A stretch of 35,805 nucleotides of DNA from Lachnospiraceae bacterium (GTDB lineage Bacteria; Bacillota; Clostridia; Lachnospirales; Lachnospiraceae), in assembly GCA_017449765.1 (NCBI GenBank), contig JAFTFE010000050.1, positions 1-35,805 of the forward strand, written 5' to 3'. Under the pieces are notes generated by a model, which saw only the letters and a list, made by a program, of their open reading frames with translations, was not told the DNA's origin and did not search any database. How positions within the stretch are numbered: position 1 is the first letter of the stretch; each line of letters begins with the position of its first letter. Made by a program: the position numbers and the translations under genes. Positions 16,474 to 24,369 of this stretch are shown piece after piece.

Positions 16474-16695
16474 TTACTTATTGTTTGTTTTATCCGGTAT
16501 ATATTCCATTACATCAGATACATTGCAATCAAGTAGTCGGCACAGCATATCTATGGTTGTACTGTTTATAGGATTCCCTTTTTTTATTGAATAGTAGTTA
16601 GTCCTGGAAAATCCCATTTTTTCTAATCTGTATGAAGTTATTCCTTTTTCGTTTAGTGTTTTAAATAGTGGCGCATAGCTTATCATATTTATCAT
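16474..16695 (-). CDS. Small Cro/C1-type helix-turn-helix regulator
   Basis: A 73-residue single-domain DNA-binding protein. The start is the ATG at 16695, with GGGAG five bases upstream; an in-frame GTG at 16701 is less likely. It has the five-helix XRE pattern: FKTLNEKGITSYRLEKMGFS as helices one and two, RTNYYSIKKG as recognition region, and INSTTIDMLCRLLDCNVSDVMEYI as helices four and five. Such proteins typically bind short palindromes near their own promoter. It is divergent from the LytTR regulator at 16927, and the 231-base gap between them holds a palindrome that could be an operator for either. Confidence 0.85.
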   Translation of the reverse strand: MINMISYAPLFKTLNEKGITSYRLEKMGFSRTNYYSIKKGNPINSTTIDMLCRLLDCNVSDVMEYIPDKTNNK

Positions 16696-16808
16696 CCCCA
16701 CTCCCTTTTTTTTTATTTTAAAATTATGTACGTATTATGGGAATGTAAGAGATAACGTATGTACGAGAATACTTGCATATTTTTGTGATTAATGATAAGA
16801 TAAATTGA

Positions 16809-16926: not shown

Positions 16927-17637
16927 ATGAGACTTATTATTTGTGACAATATACGTGAAGATGCATTATTTACAAAAAAACTTATTGAAGAATATCTTAC
17001 GGAAGATAAAAATAATATTAGTATAATTTCTCCTGATGAATTGCTTGGAAAAATTGACGATAATGAATTTGACTATGATATAGCTGTAATTGAAATTGAA
17101 TACCATAGAAATGATTTAAATGGTATAGAGCTTGGAAAAAGAATAAATGATAATGCTCCATTGTGTAATATTATATATCTTACAGACTTATCTGATTTTG
17201 TTTCGGATGTGTATGAGACCAGGCATTGTTATTTTGTGATGAAGAAAAATCAACAAAAAACACTTAATCGTGCATTGGATAAGGCTTTAGAATTATATTA
17301 TGAAAATAGTAATAAGAATACACTTCATATAAAATGTAATTATAACGATGTATATATATCTTCACAGAATATACAGTATATAACACGTGAAAATAGAAGA
17401 CTTAAAATCGTAGCGGATAAAACATATGAGTGTTATATGGGACTTAATGACTGTAAGAAGGCTTTGCCTGAAAAATTCCTGCGTTGTCATACAGGTTATA
17501 TAATTAATCCTGATTATATAAAATCCATAGAAGGCAATAAAATATGTATGATGGACAACAAAGAAATCCCTGTCGGAAGAGTTTATAAAGATAATTTTAT
17601 GTTGCTCTATAAGAAATATCTTGAAAAAAAGATATAG
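16927..17637 (+). CDS. LytTR-family response regulator with atypical receiver
   Basis: A 236-residue regulator with an N-terminal receiver-like domain (about 1-125) and a C-terminal LytTR DNA-binding domain (about 131-234, with FLRCHTGYIINPDYIKSI and IPVGRVYKD). In the receiver the acidic pocket is reduced (ICDN at residues 5-8). The position of the phosphorylated Asp is Glu56 in YDIAVIEIEY, where relatives have LDI or LDM. The Thr (YLTD) and Lys (VMKKN) positions are kept. Glu often mimics phospho-Asp, so it may be active without a kinase; no histidine kinase gene is nearby. It lies 46 bases before the first DUF5648 protein gene, in the same direction, which makes that island its likely target. 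Confidence 0.88.
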   Translation: MRLIICDNIREDALFTKKLIEEYLTEDKNNISIISPDELLGKIDDNEFDYDIAVIEIEYHRNDLNGIELGKRINDNAPLCNIIYLTDLSDFVSDVYETRHCYFVMKKNQQKTLNRALDKALELYYENSNKNTLHIKCNYNDVYISSQNIQYITRENRRLKIVADKTYECYMGLNDCKKALPEKFLRCHTGYIINPDYIKSIEGNKICMMDNKEIPVGRVYKDNFMLLYKKYLEKKI

Positions 17638-17683
17638 CGTCTGTACTTAAATTAAATCAAAAAAGAAATGGAGGAATATATCT

Positions 17684-18988
17684 ATGAAATTAAAGAAATT
17701 ATTAGCAGCAGCCGTATGTGGTGTAATGCTTGTATCAGGTAGTGGACTATCGGATATAAGTGTAAAAGCAGAGGAATCTGAAGTAAAGGATGATGTAACG
17801 TCAACACCAACATTTGAAGATTATGAAGAGATTGAATTAGTCCTTGCGGAGTCGAAGAAGTTATTAAAAAGGCAAAATTCACATTATGGAGAGTCTTATT
17901 TTTATAAAGACTTTAAATATGATTCCGATGGCAATGTTACAAAGACCTCAGAATACTATGCTGATGGCTCAGTTAGAGATGAATTTTTTAAATATGATAG
18001 TAATGGCAATTTAAAAGAATGGTCTGAATATAATAATGGCTTATATTATTTTTATAATGTCTATGAATATGATAACAATGGTAATATGACTAAAATGTCA
18101 GTTTATAATCCATTAGAAATAGCTTATTATACTACTTATGAATATGATGGAAAAGGAAATTTGACTAAAGAAACAGAAACAAAATTTGATTTTGAAAATC
18201 CGGATGGAACTATAGCTTATTATAAAACATATGAATATGATAATAATGGTAATAGAACAAAATATGAATGGCATGAAAAGGATGGTACGGTAAGTAATTA
18301 TGAATCTTATGAATATGATGATAATAATGATATGATTAAAAAGATATCTGGGGATACTACAGGCGAAGGTTATTATACTTATTCTTATGAATATGATGAG
18401 AATGGTAATTTGACTAAAAAGACAGAAGAATATGGTGATTATGGATTTGTTGACTATTGGACTTATGAATATGATTCTGATGGTGATATTATTAAAGAAA
18501 CAAAATATGAATTGTATGGTGATTATAAAATAACTGAATATTTTACATATGAATACTATACTCCGGGAGAAGAAAATTTAGTTCCAATGCATCGCTTATA
18601 TAATTCAAATAGTGGTGAACATTTCTATACTGCAGATGAAACAGAATGTGACAACCTTATTGGTTTTGGCTGGAGATATGAGGGTATAGCATGGAATGCA
18701 CCTGAGACTTCTGATACACCTGTATACCGTCTCTATAACCCGAATGCAGGAGATCATCACTATACGACAAGCTTATCTGAGAGGGATAACCTCGTAAACT
18801 TAGGTTGGAAGTATGAAGGCATCGGCTGGTATTCTACAGGAAGTGATGGACAGGCACTTTACAGACTATATAATCCAAATGCAACAGGTGCAGGTTCACA
18901 TCATTATACAACCAGTGCCGATGAGCGAGACAACCTCGTAGGATTAGGTTGGAGAGATGAAGGAATCGCCTGGTATGGTGGGAAGTAA
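17684..18988 (+). CDS. Secreted YD-repeat protein with three C-terminal DUF5648 repeats (paralogue 1)
   Basis: A 434-residue exported protein. It has a signal peptide (about residues 1-29, LLAAAVCGVMLVSGSG, cleavage near VKAEE), a short acidic linker, then about eight tandem YD repeats of the form YEYDNNGNMTK every 21-28 residues (about 65-295). YD repeats are known from Rhs and teneurin-type proteins and bind or encase ligands. Residues 302-434 carry three DUF5648-type repeats with core motifs YRLYNPN, GxHxYT, ERDNL and GWxxEGIxW. There is no LPXTG, S-layer or transmembrane anchor, so the tail may be the wall-binding part. GGAGG precedes the ATG. It is probably cotranscribed with the LytTR gene. 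Confidence 0.85.
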   Translation: MKLKKLLAAAVCGVMLVSGSGLSDISVKAEESEVKDDVTSTPTFEDYEEIELVLAESKKLLKRQNSHYGESYFYKDFKYDSDGNVTKTSEYYADGSVRDEFFKYDSNGNLKEWSEYNNGLYYFYNVYEYDNNGNMTKMSVYNPLEIAYYTTYEYDGKGNLTKETETKFDFENPDGTIAYYKTYEYDNNGNRTKYEWHEKDGTVSNYESYEYDDNNDMIKKISGDTTGEGYYTYSYEYDENGNLTKKTEEYGDYGFVDYWTYEYDSDGDIIKETKYELYGDYKITEYFTYEYYTPGEENLVPMHRLYNSNSGEHFYTADETECDNLIGFGWRYEGIAWNAPETSDTPVYRLYNPNAGDHHYTTSLSERDNLVNLGWKYEGIGWYSTGSDGQALYRLYNPNATGAGSHHYTTSADERDNLVGLGWRDEGIAWYGGK

Positions 18989-19073
18989 ACTTTATACTAC
19001 ATTTTAATTAGGAGCATACGAGTAATGTATTGATTAAAGTATGATTTTTATTAGAAGGGGGAGATAAGCGATT

Positions 19074-20483
19074 ATGAGAAAAATATTAAAATTTACTTTG
19101 AAGAAAACCTTGTCTGTAGGTATTATATCATTTATGACGATTGGAATTGTAACGACGATTAATTCACCGGTTATAGCAAAAGCAGAAATTGATACAGATG
19201 TTTATGAAGTCGAAGAATACGATGAAAGTCAAGACACGGATTATTATACAATTGATGTAGAGAAAAAAGGGGATATTATATCGCTTAATGGACAACCGGA
19301 GGATACTACAGTAAAGACGTTGAAGAAGGAGACAGTATATCATTCAGATGGTTCATTACAAGAAATAACTGAATATGATAAAAATGGAAATGAAATAAAA
19401 AACAGTTACTATAATGATTCAGTATGGTTTGAATATAATCATATATATGAATTTGACCAAAATGGTAATAAAATTAAAGAAATAAAGTATAATCCGGATG
19501 GTTCAATTCAAGAAATAACAGAATATGATTTTAATGGAAATAAGACCAAATATATACCTTATAATGATGGAAGCATTTCATATTCGGAAGAATATGAATA
19601 TGATCCTCACGGAAATCTTACAAAATCAGTAACTTATAATTCAGATGGTTCATTATCTTATTACTATACATATGAATATGATAACGAGAAAATGGTTAAG
19701 TCGACACAACATAATACAGATGGTTCAATATTGTATTATTATACATATGAATATGACGAAAATGATAATGAGATAAAAAATACATGTTTTAAAGCTGATA
19801 ATTCAACATCATATATGTATACATATACATATGAATATGATAAAAATGGAAATATCATTAAAAAAATCACTTCTGGTCCCAATGGAACAATAGAAGAAAT
19901 AATGGAATATGATGCAGATGGTAATATAACTTATCATAAAATTGATATTAGCAATCATTATATTAAATATAAATATGATGATGATGGAGACATTATAGAA
20001 TATACAATTTATAATATCGAAGATGACTTAATACTTTCTTATACAAAATATGAATACTATGACCCGATAACTTATACACCTATGTACCGTCTCTACAACC
20101 CTAACTCAGGTGAGCATTTCTACACTGCAAATGAAACAGAGAAGGACAACCTTAGTAATTTTGGTTGGATATATGAAGGTATAGCATGGAATGCACCTGA
20201 GACTTCCGACACACCTGTATACCGTCTCTATAACCCGAATGCAGGCGACCATCACTATACTACAAGTAAGACAGAAAAGGACAACCTCGTAAGCGTAGGC
20301 TGGAAGTTTGAAGGTATCGGTTGGTATTCTGCAGAAAGCGATGGACAGGCACTTTATAGACTTTATAATCCGAATGCAACCGGTGCAGGTTCACATCATT
20401 ATACAACCAATGCTGATGAGCGCGATAACCTTATAAGCTTAGGTTGGAGGAATGAAGGCATCGCCTGGTATGGTGGAAAGTAA
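19074..20483 (+). CDS. Secreted YD-repeat protein with three C-terminal DUF5648 repeats (paralogue 2)
   Basis: A 469-residue exported protein built like its upstream neighbour. A Lys-rich signal peptide covers about residues 1-38 (cleavage near AKAEI). An acidic, Tyr/Asp-rich linker follows, then about nine YD repeats (for example YEYDPHGNLTK), and the DUF5648 tail at residues 337-469. YD units share the same core as paralogue 1 but differ in spacer sequence, so the heads have diverged much more than the tails. GGGGGAG lies upstream of the ATG. The 85-base gap after paralogue 1 shows no clear promoter or terminator, so the pair is likely one transcript. Confidence 0.85.
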   Translation: MRKILKFTLKKTLSVGIISFMTIGIVTTINSPVIAKAEIDTDVYEVEEYDESQDTDYYTIDVEKKGDIISLNGQPEDTTVKTLKKETVYHSDGSLQEITEYDKNGNEIKNSYYNDSVWFEYNHIYEFDQNGNKIKEIKYNPDGSIQEITEYDFNGNKTKYIPYNDGSISYSEEYEYDPHGNLTKSVTYNSDGSLSYYYTYEYDNEKMVKSTQHNTDGSILYYYTYEYDENDNEIKNTCFKADNSTSYMYTYTYEYDKNGNIIKKITSGPNGTIEEIMEYDADGNITYHKIDISNHYIKYKYDDDGDIIEYTIYNIEDDLILSYTKYEYYDPITYTPMYRLYNPNSGEHFYTANETEKDNLSNFGWIYEGIAWNAPETSDTPVYRLYNPNAGDHHYTTSKTEKDNLVSVGWKFEGIGWYSAESDGQALYRLYNPNATGAGSHHYTTNADERDNLISLGWRNEGIAWYGGK

Positions 20484-20526
20484 GAAGTTTATTAAAGGTT
20501 TAATGATTGAGATCTTAGAAAGTGAT

Positions 20527-20602
20527 AATGTCCCAGGGGACGGGGGAAGGGGGCGAAAGTGCTATGAGCAATATCGCCCCTTTCCCCGTCCCCTGGGACA
20601 TT
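20527..20602. repeat. GC-rich imperfect palindrome, REP-like
   Basis: Left arm 20527-20556 and right arm 20574-20602 are complementary over about 28 pairs with one bulged G and one mismatch; the loop contains a tiny GCT/AGC stem. The arms are built of G/C blocks (TGTCCCAGGGGACGGGG), unlike the very AT-rich surroundings. No transposase is present. It resembles palindromes tied to REP-associated (IS200-like) transposases in Firmicutes, but as RNA it would also end transcription from paralogues 1-2. Confidence 0.8.
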
Positions 20603-20636
20603 TGACATTAATTTATGGATAATAAATGTCTTAAAG

Positions 20637-20665
20637 TTGATTAAAATAATGCTGTATGTTAAAAT
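20637..20665 (+). promoter_or_regulatory. Putative extended -10 promoter for paralogue 3
   Basis: TTGATT (20637-20642) and TAAAAT (20660-20665) are 17 bases apart, and TGT directly before the -10 gives an extended -10 element. It lies just after the GC-rich palindrome and about 60 bases before the start codon. With the palindrome it would make paralogues 3-4 a separate transcript from 1-2. Confidence 0.5.
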
Positions 20666-20725
20666 TTATGTAATATGGGGTTAATATTTAAAAATATAAT
20701 AAAAAAATCAGGAGGAAAAAAATAA

Positions 20726-22633
20726 ATGAAAGATTGTATGAAAATTAAAAAAATTATATTATTAACAATATTCTGTATCTTAATTGTTAATTGTGGGGTT
20801 TCATTTGTTGTAAAAGCTGAAAACAAAAACAGTCAATTGAAATTTGTTTATAATTATATAGGTTCAGCAATTGAATTACATGAAGGAAATAATAAAGTTG
20901 ATAATTCTAAAGCTTTTACTGCTATTAGAACTGATTATATTTATGGTTTAAATGAAAATTATTGGACATATAATGAAACTATTGAGACAGGAACTTTATA
21001 TAAAGTATTAATACCGGATCACAAAGTTGTAAATATAATATTTGATTCGCCGGTTAGTGGTGCTTCATATTATGATTTAACTAAAGATAGTTTTTATTAC
21101 TATGATGAAAATGATTTGCATCAAGATTGGTGGTTTGTTAATTTTGATGGTAAAGAAAAAGTAGGATATTTATGGATTTGTAATAATGAAAATTACAGTA
21201 ATATATCAATTGAAATTTCGGATGCAATTACTGATAAAGAATATAGAAACTTAGGTGAAACGTTAAATTTAGGAATTACAGATATTGAAAAAACTGATGG
21301 TTATACTTATTATTATGAATACAATTATACTATTGAAACTAAGGAAAGAGTTATAGGAAAAAATACCAAATATTTTATGTATTTTAATGATTATATTAAA
21401 CCATATAAAATTAAAATTCCTGCAGGTAAAAAATATGAAATTTTACCATATAAATATGAATTTTCTGATGAATATTTATTAGATGATGGCAAAAGTCAAT
21501 GCTTTGGATATGTAATAGATGATTCAAGTTTTTCTGTTGGGGAATTAATTGCCAGTAAAGATGATAAAAATATATATTTTGGATATGACGGAAGATTTTG
21601 CTTAGATAATACAAATAATAAAGATGATATAACATACTATTTTGATGCAGATATGAATTTAAAAAGTATAATTCTTGTTGATGTTACAGATGGAATAAAT
21701 AAGGTTTTGGAAAACACGACAGATAATACAGAGAATTTTGCTTTTGCTGATATAGTTAATTCCTCTGATGAATTGAAGAAAAATATATTAACAGATGAAG
21801 AACAGGCTCTACTTAGTGTTGGTGTTGATATACAAATCAGACTTGATGTTGAAGATAAAAAAGATAAAATAAGTAGCAAAGAAGAATCTGCTATAAATAA
21901 AGCTATTACCGGAAAATACCAGGTTGGAACAATTCTTGATATTAATCTAATAAAAAAAATCGGAGAAAATAATGTATCTAAGGTTACGGATGTTCCAAAT
22001 GGTAATATTGAAATACAGTTGACAGTGCCTGATAATATTCAAAAAAAAGATAGAAAATATAAAGTTATCAGATTACATAATGGTGTTGTGTCTGAGCTTG
22101 ATGTAAATCAGAATAAAAATATATTATCATTTGAAACAAATCAATTTTCTACATATGCCATATTATTTGAGGAATCTATTACTGATTCAACATCAAATAA
22201 TAGTAAAAATAATTCAACAAAATATGTTTCTATGTACCGCCTCTACAATCCTAACTCAGGTGAGCACTTCTACACTGCAAATGCTACTGAGAGAGATAAC
22301 CTCAGTAACTTAGGTTGGAGATATGAAGGAGTAGCATGGAATGCACCTGAGATTTCCGACACACCTGTATACCGTCTCTATAACCCGAATGCAGGCGACC
22401 ATCACTATACGACGAGCTCATCTGAGAGGGATAACCTCGTAAACTTAGGTTGGAAATATGAAGGCATCGGCTGGTATTCGACCGGAAGTGATGGACAGGC
22501 ACTTTACAGATTATATAATCCGAATGCGAAAGCAGCGGGAGCACACCATTACACGACCAGTGCAGATGAGCGTGACAACCTCATAAGCTTAGGCTGGAGA
22601 AATGAAGGAATCGCCTGGTATGGTGGGAAATAA
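20726..22633 (+). CDS. Secreted protein of unknown head with three C-terminal DUF5648 repeats (paralogue 3)
   Basis: A 635-residue exported protein. A signal peptide spans about residues 1-31 (IILLTIFCILIVNCGVSFVV, cleavage near VKAEN). Residues ~35-330 are a Tyr/Asn/Asp-rich, beta-looking region that I do not recognise. Residues ~370-475 resemble a domain common in clostridial surface proteins just before the C-terminal tail (LTVPDNIQKKDRKYKVIRLH, then FETNQFSTYAILF). A Ser/Asn linker leads to the DUF5648 tail at 503-635. AGGAGG precedes the ATG. The head has very AT-rich codon use and the tail clearly less. No catalytic motif is apparent. Confidence 0.8.
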   Translation: MKDCMKIKKIILLTIFCILIVNCGVSFVVKAENKNSQLKFVYNYIGSAIELHEGNNKVDNSKAFTAIRTDYIYGLNENYWTYNETIETGTLYKVLIPDHKVVNIIFDSPVSGASYYDLTKDSFYYYDENDLHQDWWFVNFDGKEKVGYLWICNNENYSNISIEISDAITDKEYRNLGETLNLGITDIEKTDGYTYYYEYNYTIETKERVIGKNTKYFMYFNDYIKPYKIKIPAGKKYEILPYKYEFSDEYLLDDGKSQCFGYVIDDSSFSVGELIASKDDKNIYFGYDGRFCLDNTNNKDDITYYFDADMNLKSIILVDVTDGINKVLENTTDNTENFAFADIVNSSDELKKNILTDEEQALLSVGVDIQIRLDVEDKKDKISSKEESAINKAITGKYQVGTILDINLIKKIGENNVSKVTDVPNGNIEIQLTVPDNIQKKDRKYKVIRLHNGVVSELDVNQNKNILSFETNQFSTYAILFEESITDSTSNNSKNNSTKYVSMYRLYNPNSGEHFYTANATERDNLSNLGWRYEGVAWNAPEISDTPVYRLYNPNAGDHHYTTSSSERDNLVNLGWKYEGIGWYSTGSDGQALYRLYNPNAKAAGAHHYTTSADERDNLISLGWRNEGIAWYGGK

Positions 22634-22652
22634 GAGGTGAATAAGAGGTGAA
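22631..22652 (+). repeat. 11-bp tandem duplication carrying two ribosome sites
   Basis: TAAGAGGTGAA occurs twice in tandem (22631-22641 and 22642-22652). The first copy contains the stop codon of paralogue 3 and each copy carries a GAGGTG ribosome site. The second copy is correctly spaced for the ATG at 22657, the first for a GTG at 22648 in the same frame. Confidence 0.9.
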
Positions 22653-22656
22653 TAAA

Positions 22657-24369
22657 ATGAAACAAAGAACAAGAAATTTACTATTAGGACTTATTCTGTC
22701 TGTAGTATTAATTTTTACACTTATTAATCCAAATAATATTAATCAAAGCAGTGCTGCAAGTGTGCCTTATGTTACTTACACAGGAGATAATATAGAAGAT
22801 CAGGATTATAGAACATGGTCAAAACCGATATATTCTTATATATCGAAATATTCTGATAATCAGATTATGACCGTGCAGTATATTAGCGGTGATAAATTCG
22901 TTGTTGAGTATTTTGACAGCGATTATAAATTCCTGAGTTATAAAGAGATTACACTTGAGCTTCCAAAGTTTGGAGGGTTTTACGAGACTGACAGTAATTA
23001 TTACATACTCACGGGACAGAATAATCCTAACGAGGATGATAATGTAGAAGTATATAGAATAACAAAATATGATAAGAATTGGAACAGAATTGCAAGCTGT
23101 GGTTTATATGGTGCTAATACATATGCACCTTTTGAGGCAGGTTCTGCACACATGACATCAAGTGGAAAATATCTTTTTATAAGGACATGTCATAAAATGT
23201 ATGTATCTTCTGATGGATTAAATCATCAGGCAAATGTTACTATACAGATCGATATGGATACAATGACAGTTACAGATTCATATACAGGTGTGATGAATGT
23301 TTCTTGGGGTTATGTGAGCCATTCCTTTAATGAGTTCATACAGATTGAGAATAATAAAGTTGTAGCAGTAGACCACGGAGATGCGTTTCCAAGGTCGATA
23401 GTTCTTATTAATTATTCAGAAGATGTTACGACGGGACAGTTCCTTGGATCAAATTTTGCTCCGTGTACATCAACTAACATGGTAAGTTTTTCCGGTGAAG
23501 CAGGTGCAAATTATACCGGTGCATCTTTAGGTGGATTCGAGATATCAAGTTCAGCATATCTGGTTGCAGGCAATCAGGATATCGGAACATCTAAATACGA
23601 TACAAGAAATATATTTGTAGCAGCTAAGAATAAATCTTCAGGTGCTGTAACTGTAAATAAGATAACTGATTATGCTGCCGGTTCAGGAGAGACCACAACT
23701 CCTCATTTTGTAAAGATAGCTGAAGATAGCTTTATGCTTCTATGGAATTATAATGGAAAGGTTTATTACACCCGAATAGATGCAGAAGGAAGACAGGTTG
23801 GCAATATATATAATGTGGATGGCGATTTGTCGGATTGTGTACCGACTATGATTGGAAATAATCTTGTGTGGTATGTATGGGAAAATGAATATATGTACTT
23901 CTATAACATAAATATTTCTTCATTAGACAATCCGTCAGTAAAAAAGGTAAAAATAGGATATACAAAGATGCATCGCCTTTATAATCCAAATAGTGGTGAA
24001 CATTTCTATACCGCAGATGAAACAGAATGTGATAACCTTATTGGTTTTGGTTGGAGATATGAGGGTATAGCATGGAATGCACCTGAGACTTCAGACACAC
24101 CTGTATACCGTCTCTATAATCCGAATGCAGGAGACCATCACTATACGACAAGCTTAGCTGAAAAGGATAACCTCGTAAGCGTAGGCTGGAAGTATGAAGG
24201 TATAGGTTGGTATTCTGCAGAAAGCGATGGACAGGCACTTTACAGACTTTATAATCCAAATGCAACAGGTGCAGGTTCACATCATTATACAACCAGTGCC
24301 GATGAGCGTGATAACCTCATAAGCTTAGGCTGGAGGGATGAAGGAATCGCCTGGTATGGTGGTAAATAA
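22657..24369 (+). CDS. Secreted propeller-like protein with three C-terminal DUF5648 repeats (paralogue 4)
   Basis: A 570-residue exported protein. The ATG at 22657 follows GAGGTG with good spacing; an in-frame GTG at 22648 is an alternative. A signal peptide covers about residues 1-35 (NLLLGLILSVVLIFTLI, cleavage near SSAAS). The head (about 40-430) has recurring short beta strands with aromatic and Asp-rich turns (YYILTGQNNPNEDD, YLFIRTCHKMYVSSDGL, SFMLLWNYNGKVYYTRIDAE), which suggests a beta-propeller, although no named family is recognised. The DUF5648 tail is at 438-570. Codon use in this head is less AT-rich than in paralogues 1-3, so it may have a different origin. It starts 23 bases after paralogue 3 and is surely cotranscribed. 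Confidence 0.82.
   Translation: MKQRTRNLLLGLILSVVLIFTLINPNNINQSSAASVPYVTYTGDNIEDQDYRTWSKPIYSYISKYSDNQIMTVQYISGDKFVVEYFDSDYKFLSYKEITLELPKFGGFYETDSNYYILTGQNNPNEDDNVEVYRITKYDKNWNRIASCGLYGANTYAPFEAGSAHMTSSGKYLFIRTCHKMYVSSDGLNHQANVTIQIDMDTMTVTDSYTGVMNVSWGYVSHSFNEFIQIENNKVVAVDHGDAFPRSIVLINYSEDVTTGQFLGSNFAPCTSTNMVSFSGEAGANYTGASLGGFEISSSAYLVAGNQDIGTSKYDTRNIFVAAKNKSSGAVTVNKITDYAAGSGETTTPHFVKIAEDSFMLLWNYNGKVYYTRIDAEGRQVGNIYNVDGDLSDCVPTMIGNNLVWYVWENEYMYFYNINISSLDNPSVKKVKIGYTKMHRLYNPNSGEHFYTADETECDNLIGFGWRYEGIAWNAPETSDTPVYRLYNPNAGDHHYTTSLAEKDNLVSVGWKYEGIGWYSAESDGQALYRLYNPNATGAGSHHYTTSADERDNLISLGWRDEGIAWYGGK

Follow-up and report, generated by a model that had tools for sequence, protein, structure and literature searches.

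DUF5648, a probable noncovalent surface anchor at the end of many secreted proteins in a Lachnospiraceae bacterium

Four adjacent genes of a Lachnospiraceae bacterium encode proteins that begin differently and end in nearly the same way, and a LytTR regulator gene stands in front of them. What does the common ending do, and does the regulator govern the four genes? The window, i.e., the whole stretch of DNA analysed (35,805 nucleotides), belongs to the genome coded G000 in a genus comparison set of 37 genomes (G000 upward). Open reading frames lie where the first-pass annotation had placed them, and together with Pfam they bear out its basic layout, a LytTR regulator followed by four secreted-protein genes with differing heads and near-identical tails:

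16474..16701, minus strand: small gene of XRE helix-turn-helix type, 75 aa, in divergent orientation to the LytTR gene (sequence reading)
16927..17637, plus strand: orphan LytTR response regulator with degenerate receiver (Pfam match, alignment with relatives)
17684..18988, plus strand: gene 1, signal peptide, YD/RHS repeats, DUF5648 tail (ORF, Pfam)
18584..18985, plus strand: DUF5648 tail of gene 1 (Pfam, tail alignment)
19074..20483, plus strand: gene 2, signal peptide, DUF2963/RHS repeats, DUF5648 tail (ORF, Pfam)
20079..20480, plus strand: DUF5648 tail of gene 2 (Pfam, tail alignment)
20527..20602, no strand: long palindrome, rich in G+C, in the gap that separates genes 2 and 3 (exact 14-mers, folding)
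20726..22633, plus strand: gene 3, signal peptide, unrecognised head, stalk domain, DUF5648 tail (Pfam, head comparison)
22232..22630, plus strand: DUF5648 tail of gene 3 (Pfam, tree)
22648..24369, plus strand: gene 4, signal peptide, propeller-like head, DUF5648 tail (Pfam, AlphaFold2, Foldseek)
23968..24366, plus strand: DUF5648 tail of gene 4 (Pfam, alignment, model)

Tails, heads and export signals

The constant tail of about 133 residues noticed at first pass is confirmed by profile search: all four proteins match PF18885 (DUF5648) with 186.2-190.5 bits, at a curated cut-off of 25 bits, over 131-132 residues at the C-terminus, from position 1 or 2 of the 134-position profile to position 133. 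At the protein level, the tail of gene 4 shares 93% identity with that of gene 1, 92% with that of gene 2 and 85% with that of gene 3. In all six pairs the DNA identity starts at the tail and stops at the stop codon, with 66-98% per block inside the tail and 16-45% on either side. The likeness of the tails is not due to chance, because DNA identity is confined between these two points. The model of the gene 4 tail consists of a β-β-α-β unit repeated three times; a fold search with this model (pTM 0.48) gave no match, and a PDB sequence search with the tail gave no significant one.

Each of the four proteins has a hydrophobic, signal-peptide-like segment by a crude test, in agreement with the signal peptides predicted earlier, and each ends in the DUF5648 tail followed by GK, with no LPXTG-sortase signal (PF00746). 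As had been noted before, sortase and S-layer anchors are absent, and Pfam reported neither these nor any other anchor domain in the four proteins at E ≤ 0.1. Of the heads, YD/RHS repeats in genes 1 and 2 and an unrecognised head in gene 3 stand as first described, and no Pfam match to the heads of genes 3 and 4 exceeds its cut-off. The propeller assigned to gene 4 is plausible but not proven: its head is all-β in the AlphaFold2 model (pLDDT 60, pTM 0.69), and the 50 Foldseek matches listed, with E-values from 9.5e-7 to 3.3e-5 and TM by query of 0.16-0.44, include many proteins that we take to be β-propellers.

The tail is not peculiar to this locus. Profile search locates DUF5648 at 36 places on 25 contigs of G000, probably a lower bound since a number of contigs break off within or next to tail genes, and 32 of these places are outside the window. 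DUF5648 lies within 10 aa of the C-terminus in 33 of the 36 proteins (one of the 33 is cut by a contig end) and is followed by 120-152 residues in the other three. Signal-peptide-like segments were seen in 31 of the 32 DUF5648 proteins with a start, leaving aside the four cut ones, and in 165 of 456 other proteins longer than 200 aa from the examined stretches of all genomes (the same crude test). The heads comprise, besides YD repeats, GH5 cellulase, transglutaminase, trypsin, a Cthe_2159-type carbohydrate-binding domain, leucine-rich and Ig-like repeats; outside the window the head scan took in 10 of the 32 places. Many proteins of G000 thus combine a signal peptide with one and the same tail on unlike heads, and the four window genes are a local cluster of this wider set, not a self-contained four-gene system.

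The tail as a putative wall anchor

We propose that DUF5648 anchors proteins noncovalently to the envelope by binding wall glycan and would be the standard C-terminal tail of the surface proteome in this species (36 places). The signal peptide would direct the export of each of the four proteins, and the three-repeat tail would then keep the protein at the cell surface with its head on display, be it a YD-repeat stalk, the propeller-like head or the unrecognised one. Taken as a whole, with the window genes as a local cluster of four and a probably kinase-independent regulator beside them (see below), this proposal seems to us probable. Binding itself, its ligand and the surface location of the tailed proteins are what we infer; no report of measured binding was found for these tails.

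An anchoring function is suggested by related species, in which similar proteins end in a different tail. With tails masked, GH5 heads that bear DUF5648 in G000 and G030 align with a head that bears ChW repeats in G027 (45% over 374-376 aa), a head of the gene 4 type with DUF5648 in G030 aligns with one followed by a choline-binding-like tail in G029 (46% over 520 aa; this tail is weakly related to PF19127, with 18-22 bits, below the cut-off), and a further head is shared by G000 (contig C88) and G029 (40% over 370 aa). The stalk of gene 3 is 54% identical over 156 aa (E 2e-38) to a protein of G012, where an LPXTG-like end follows, read by eye and without a PF00746 match in that genome. The 106 cross-tail head alignments come from the examined stretches only and include, in places, several per pair and many YD-repeat pairs. 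Homologous heads therefore end in DUF5648 in some species and in ChW (a predicted anchor), choline-binding-like or LPXTG-like counterparts elsewhere, which upholds the earlier suggestion that heads are display parts. Loss of sortase was considered as an explanation and rejected: PF00746 has no match in G000, but a sortase match is present in 32 of the 37 genomes, G000 included, with one match.

DUF5648 also occurs at the C-terminus of putative viral endolysins, on viral contigs encoding Amidase_2, CHAP (two cases) and an endolysin-like domain; this is the position of a wall-binding module. Two candidates were set aside, namely ORF33 of phage BK5-T, annotated as GH25 but with DUF5648 as its sole Pfam domain, and L190, a glucosaminidase with DUF5648 on an unverified 'Listeria phage' contig whose neighbours are, by our reading, of bacterial type. 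Together with the envelope-type counterparts of the tail, its place at the end of endolysins makes the first-pass view of a shared wall- or glycan-binding module very probably correct. In print, DUF5648 is found in the enterococcal prophage lysin 'Ecm' next to GH25 (PMC13379245), in GH70 enzymes (PMC11299179), and in a group of BSAP toxins with homologues of the receptor-binding ends of BSAP-2 and BSAP-3, which target O-antigen glycan (PMC12853789). There, too, it is C-terminal or auxiliary with proposed glycan binding, but it is treated one protein at a time (PMC12853789, PMC11299179, PMC13379245), whereas here it is the tail of dozens of secreted proteins in one genome. A role in self-anchoring to wall glycans would be a testable one for a widespread domain that these three papers touch from other sides.

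The same literature allows for a tail that faces outward, i.e., a carbohydrate-binding module whose ligands are external glycans, such as those of plant fibre, mucus or other microbes, and which targets substrate or prey instead of anchoring the protein to its own cell. The BSAP group with DUF5648 is proposed to bind glycans of other cells (PMC12853789), GH70 enzymes bear the domain (PMC11299179), and in G000 it is borne by the GH5 cellulase and the Cthe_2159-type carbohydrate-binding head, the former being compatible with a tail that binds substrate and not the wall. Yet YD, trypsin, transglutaminase, propeller-like and CAP-like heads (the last assigned by eye in G011 and G030) have no obvious common substrate, homologous heads of congeners end in choline-binding-like, ChW and LPXTG-like envelope anchors or predicted ones, and DUF5648 occupies its position in lysins; we therefore regard an external target as unlikely. 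The YD/RHS repeats of genes 1 and 2 recall yet another kind of protein, the Rhs/WapA-type polymorphic toxins with YD repeats and an effector end. Here, however, the layout is reversed, with a constant C-terminal DUF5648 and variable heads, RHS matches are absent from genes 3 and 4, and we recognised no immunity-type gene between or after the four genes, so that a toxin locus is hardly credible and the wall anchor remains our preferred reading.

Surface proteins with shared tails are a known kind, and the first-pass statement that no system with such a layout had been described was too strong. Close counterparts are the ChW proteins and the choline-binding or cell-wall-binding-repeat proteins. 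ChW (PF07538; the Clostridium acetobutylicum family) is a repeat module in which a G-W is conserved; it is believed to work at the surface in groups of three, is present on lysins and a mannanase (PMC5817068, PMC3044671) and has no known ligand (PMC5817068). By profile search it reaches large repeat counts in single genomes. It is a different family from DUF5648, and no genome of the 37 has both at least 5 DUF5648 and at least 10 ChW. In the choline-binding type (PF01473, PF19127), which includes Butyrivibrio proteoclasticus enzymes, the C-terminal tail is believed to keep enzymes on the wall, and similar amylases of two Butyrivibrio are reported to differ at this end, one having a wall-binding tail where the other has an LPXTG-like end, so that a difference of this sort was already in print (PMC2914790). 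That tail is a domain other than DUF5648, and PMC2914790 did not come up among the papers in which DUF5648 is named.

Descent and possible exchange of tails

Are the tails alike by descent alone? Four genes produced by a recent tandem duplication, with fast divergence of the heads, would agree with the 85-93% identity to the gene 4 tail, with the YD-type heads of both genes 1 and 2, and with the tail tree, where the tails of genes 1 and 4 pair (91/93). The same tree, which shows 36 of its 68 internal branches as open, joins the gene 3 tail to tails from contigs C6 and C89 (96/95, 97/78), apart from its window neighbours; genes 1, 3 and 4 have different head types, and identity ends at the tail edges. 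Duplication alone is thus very unlikely, and exchange or conversion of tails fits better. The comparison covers 72 tails of at least 125 aa, out of 79 class-A proteins in the examined stretches (seven shorter ones were excluded, and two places each in G026 and G030 are not among the 79). The nearest tail belongs to the same genome for 48 of the 72 (shuffle mean 21, largest 35). Among the 18 head pairs listed, some tails go along with the head from one species to another, as in G011 C52 and G026 C34 (94%). Concerted evolution of the tails, as judged from these sequences, would be only partial.

Within the genus, DUF5648 reaches 5 or more matches in 4 genomes, the G029-type tail 5 or more in 6, and ChW 10 or more repeats in 14; 13 of the 37 genomes are in no set, and matches include pieces of one protein. 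The three sets are disjoint, for which simulation gives a chance of 0.0016 with thresholds chosen post hoc and relatedness ignored. Below the thresholds, ChW repeats occur in G011 (6), G025 (4), G029 (3) and G026 (1), G001 has 1 DUF5648 and 2 G029-type matches, G033 has 49 ChW and 1 G029-type match, and G034 has 38 ChW and one sub-cut-off DUF5648. In a family survey of 397 genomes, with up to 10, 19 and 22 matches scored per genome, ChW and Choline_bind_1 overlap less than expected at thresholds of at least 5 (1 vs 6.7, P 0.004), 8 (0 vs 5.1, P 0.003) and 10 (0 vs 4.4, P 0.006), but not at 3 (10 vs 11.1, P 0.42). For DUF5648 alone at 5 or more, the overlaps with ChW (0 vs 0.41 expected) and with Choline_bind_1 (0 vs 1.48, P 0.18) are not significant, and at 3 or more one genome, G043, combines 4 DUF5648 with 11 ChW.

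Tentatively, one may imagine that each species of the genus has one dominant 'house tail' (DUF5648, ChW or choline-binding-like), and that, when the wall glycan changes, e.g., under phage pressure, dozens of tails are replaced, after which recombination at their edges makes them uniform and leaves the heads in place, DUF5648 being the address label of one wall type. If tail sets are indeed exchanged, the question becomes by what means a bacterium gives all of its surface a new address, and gut bacteria would have a new family of anchoring tails. In any case, the genus now provides a comparison set of head families with different ends, four kinds in all.

The regulator and its possible targets

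The regulator contains a LytTR domain (62.1 bits, cut-off 22.6) and a Response_reg match of 20.8 bits that falls under the 30.2-bit cut-off. Its sequence resembles that of regulators in LytTR/GHKL two-component systems (AgrA/ComE type), with the same receiver and LytTR layout. At receiver positions 8 and 56, which in this family would belong to the acidic pair and be the presumed phosphoacceptor, it has N and E, whereas all 11 aligned relatives have D; the phosphoacceptor Asp and the acidic pair of a phosphorylation-controlled regulator are thus lacking. Relatives in G029, G011 and G014 adjoin multi-pass membrane proteins and a short kinase, GHKL-like by our reading. The window locus differs from such systems in its Asp to Glu replacement and in that no cognate kinase gene lies among the four genes on either side, though one may lie farther away. 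The regulator is now probably kinase-independent and appears phosphorylation-independent, which would place a LytTR protein of this type beside a surface cassette.

Does it switch the four genes as one operon, as had been supposed? The genes are on one strand with gaps of 46 bp (regulator to gene 1), 85 bp (genes 1-2), 242 bp (genes 2-3) and 14 bp (genes 3-4), i.e., short at three of four junctions, and LytTR genes adjoin tail-bearing genes also in G011, G030, G029 and G014. The 242-bp gap before gene 3, though, holds a very stable palindrome with two exact 14-mers (0.03 expected), the whole gap folding at -85 kcal/mol (z = -9.6); the palindrome is perhaps a REP-like mobile repeat and a possible transcription barrier. 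No LytTR consensus pair was found in the intergenic regions, with a consensus that may not fit this clade, and no upstream word shared by 30 DUF5648 genes against 262 controls survived correction for thousands of words; the best of the 3,900 7-mers present (P 4.9e-5) is, by our reading, the tail coding end of upstream genes. The DUF5648 genes seen in G011 and G030 are upstream of the LytTR gene, not downstream, G029 and G014 have tail-bearing genes on both sides, and the receiver is degenerate. With 32 DUF5648 places elsewhere and only 2 of the 8 LytTR places of G000 within 3 kb of one (P=0.073, not significant), a single LytTR-switched island is doubtful. We prefer a narrower role, in which the regulator, whose closest relatives stand beside such surface cassettes, may control gene 1 and, less surely, gene 2; that it also governs genes 3 and 4 or any of the other 32 places is uncertain to unlikely.

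At this locus, a link between LytTR genes and tails does exist. Placement within G000 is scattered, as the above counts indicate, and tail-bearing neighbours are present at five of the six closest LytTR loci, window included, with an LPXTG-like secreted neighbour at the sixth. In other species, the secreted proteins at the homologous locus have a choline-binding-like tail, ChW repeats (the ChW tag at the second G008 locus is doubtful) or an LPXTG-like end.

The degenerate receiver, the palindrome between genes 2 and 3 and the small divergent gene at 16474..16701 were not in the first-pass annotation. NCBIfam gives this gene only a weak match, to a helix-turn-helix regulator (22.6 bits, cut-off 150), its XRE assignment being read from the sequence, and small divergent XRE-like genes also adjoin the LytTR genes of G012 and G030.

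The window cassette and its shared tail

All four signal-peptide proteins encoded downstream of the LytTR gene (genes 1-4) match DUF5648 (PF18885) at 186-190 bits over their last ~132 residues, and the earlier description of four consecutive secreted proteins with one C-terminal tail is thus borne out. The tail of gene 4 is 85-93% identical, at the protein level, to those of genes 1-3, and DNA identity among the four genes sets in at one edge of the tail and ends at the other. The cassette, which lies on contig C136 of G000 (3.42-Mb assembly, 191 contigs, estimated contamination 5.29%), consists of a small divergent XRE-type gene, the LytTR regulator and genes 1-4, set between flanking genes:

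Upstream of cassette: dipicolinate-synthase-like gene (weak, sub-cut-off match)
Upstream of cassette: flavoprotein gene
16474-16701: small XRE-type gene, divergent from and adjoining the LytTR gene
17684-24369, + strand: genes 1-4
20527-20602: G+C-rich, REP-like palindrome between genes 2 and 3, with GTCCCAGGGGACGG at each end
Downstream of cassette, opposite strand: asparagine synthase gene
Downstream of cassette, opposite strand: DAHP synthase gene

DUF5648 occurs at 36 places on 25 contigs of G000, several of them truncated by contig ends; the tail ends within 10 residues of the C-terminus in 33 of the 36. A signal-like segment is present in 31 of the 32 DUF5648 proteins with a start, versus 165/456 other proteins over 200 aa from the fetched stretches of all genomes. 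Among the places listed, the genes are single or paired, mostly near housekeeping-type genes. About 16 heads (the parts N-terminal to the tail) are of YD type, as judged by eye. In the 10 of 32 places outside the window that were scanned with Pfam, heads include GH5 cellulase, transglutaminase, trypsin, Cthe_2159, leucine-rich, Big_2, Flg_new with a ubiquitin-like domain, and PPC (below cut-off); one head has no match. The ubiquitin-like domain (PF00240, 52 bits, E 6e-14) lies inside a secreted Flg_new-repeat protein (C146:28990-32655; fetched stretch L061, 6991-10653). Another gene, C6:10915-12576 (L052), is probably truncated, since its beginning is similar just to the last part of the gene 4 head, and it has no signal-like segment.

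Exchange of tails and their distribution

Homologous heads carry different tails when compared with tails masked (cut-off E 1e-8). GH5 heads with DUF5648 and with ChW (in G027, of the 37-genome genus set) are 45% identical over 374-376 aa. A gene-4-type head with DUF5648 shares 46% over 520 aa with a protein bearing the choline-binding-like tail that we call G029-type; the gene 4 head itself shares 28% over 388 aa with the same protein. Another head pairs these two tails at 40% over 370 aa, and the gene 3 stalk matches an LPXTG-like protein of G012 (54% over 156 aa). In total there are 106 cross-tail head alignments, counting multiple alignments of a single pair and numerous YD-repeat pairs.

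The genomes rich in DUF5648 are G000 (36), G011 (20), G030 (15) and G026 (11, including two broken remnants), and none of these four has the G029-type tail, which has 61 matches in G029, 12 in G007 and 6-7 each in G019, G025, G003 and G020. Fourteen other genomes of the genus are ChW-rich. In the family survey DUF5648 is found in 18 of 397 genomes; because only six have five or more, its heavy use is a habit of few species. The G029-type tail (for example, G029 C13, L129, 13810-15636) is unnamed and ~180 aa long, and its only PF19127 matches are weak and sub-cut-off; one protein has it N-terminal to YD-type repeats.

For 48 of 72 tails the nearest relative comes from the same genome. The tail tree does not unite the four window tails: those of genes 1 and 4 form a pair, and that of gene 3 goes with C6 and C89. 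Tails are therefore exchanged among heads, with partial homogenisation inside genomes.

Tail exchange, genomic complementarity and the lysins described below point to DUF5648 as a predicted envelope anchor. The wall- or glycan-binding role first proposed for the tail gains from homologous heads with other anchor tails and from its C-terminal position in lysins; binding as such is a prediction from sequence. Published statements, as far as the available portions of the papers go, agree with the anchor reading: DUF5648 is present in the BSAP group to which homologues of O-antigen-targeting BSAPs belong (PMC12853789), in GH70 enzymes (PMC11299179) and in a GH25 lysin (PMC13379245). The portions available of literature naming DUF5648 or PF18885 do not describe the domain as a tail of the surface proteome, and those on wall-binding tails, ChW, LytTR and YD proteins deal with known families (PMC5817068, PMC3044671, PMC2914790). 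The first-pass annotation knew of no described system with this layout; however, similar Butyrivibrio amylases with different anchors are on record in the part seen of PMC2914790, so that tail exchange as such is already known. What is added here is DUF5648 as a house tail (the one dominant kind in a species) and the proposed exchange of large tail sets.

The LytTR regulator and its neighbourhood

Homologues of the window regulator (E<=1e-25) occupy 26 places in 19 of the 37 genomes; the 22 loci surveyed cover 23 of those 26 places. Tail-bearing neighbours occur in five of the six closest loci (44-100% identity, window included): DUF5648 in G000, G011 and G030, choline-binding-like in G029, ChW in G014. 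In the sixth, that of G012, there is a secreted protein whose end looks LPXTG-like by eye. Among the 16 more distant loci a ChW tag is nearby in three, one doubtful. DUF5648 genes lie downstream of the regulator in the window, but those seen in G011 and G030 are upstream of it. In G030 the regulator is cut off by the end of its contig. What we read as a GHKL-like kinase adjoins the regulator, together with multi-pass membrane proteins, in G029, G011 and G014; neither is found beside it at the G000 and G012 loci. In G012 and G030, too, the LytTR gene has a small neighbour similar to the window XRE-type gene; such genes could encode co-regulators.

Within G000, two of eight LytTR places have a DUF5648 gene no more than 3 kb away (chance P=0.073). 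Besides the window there is contig C163 (L064), a second, different pairing:

C163:1821-2150: 109-aa LytTR-only protein without receiver, ~160 bp upstream of the next gene
C163:265-1662: LRR-type DUF5648 gene, preceded by the LytTR-only gene

The suggested link of LytTR to tailed proteins thus holds as a recurring neighbourhood, although co-location within G000 is compatible with chance.

Regulation of gene 1, 46 bp from the LytTR gene, is plausible. Genes 1-2, 2-3 and 3-4 are separated by 85, 242 and 14 bp, and the 242-bp gap folds at -85 kcal/mol vs -46 for shuffles; the palindrome in it is a possible transcription barrier. No LytTR site was recognised in the intergenic regions, nor was a shared upstream word found. 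The proposed switching of all four genes we consider unlikely and rate below regulation of gene 1. Regulation of the whole DUF5648 set is unsupported.

The receiver alignment shows DD at positions 7-8 and D at 56 in all 11 relatives, against DN and E in the window protein; phosphorylation control has thus probably been lost, judging from these residues, and Glu at 56 may mimic the active state.

Viral DUF5648 proteins

A viral-contig scan gave 16 DUF5648 loci and a phage-record search nine records; Pfam was run on proteins of six and two of these, respectively. Of the six viral proteins, four carry DUF5648 at the C-terminus of a lytic-type enzyme: one Amidase_2, two CHAP and one endolysin-like. 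Of the remaining two, one is short, secreted and bears DUF5648, and one, of 918 aa, has DUF5648 at its N-terminus together with ricin-type lectin repeats. Loci L194 and L195 look CHAP-like by eye, and by our reading holin-type small membrane proteins adjoin the CHAP plus DUF5648 genes.

Viral proteins of 176-193 aa at L193, L196, L197, L199, L200, L202, L203 and L205 are scarcely more than signal peptide and DUF5648 (Pfam: L193 only). Phages BK5-T and Dub35A (L188, L189) encode a 258-aa secreted DUF5648 protein near repressor and integrase genes; it is annotated GH25, with no Pfam match to GH25 in the BK5-T protein. Such small secreted phage proteins possibly mask wall glycans from other phages.
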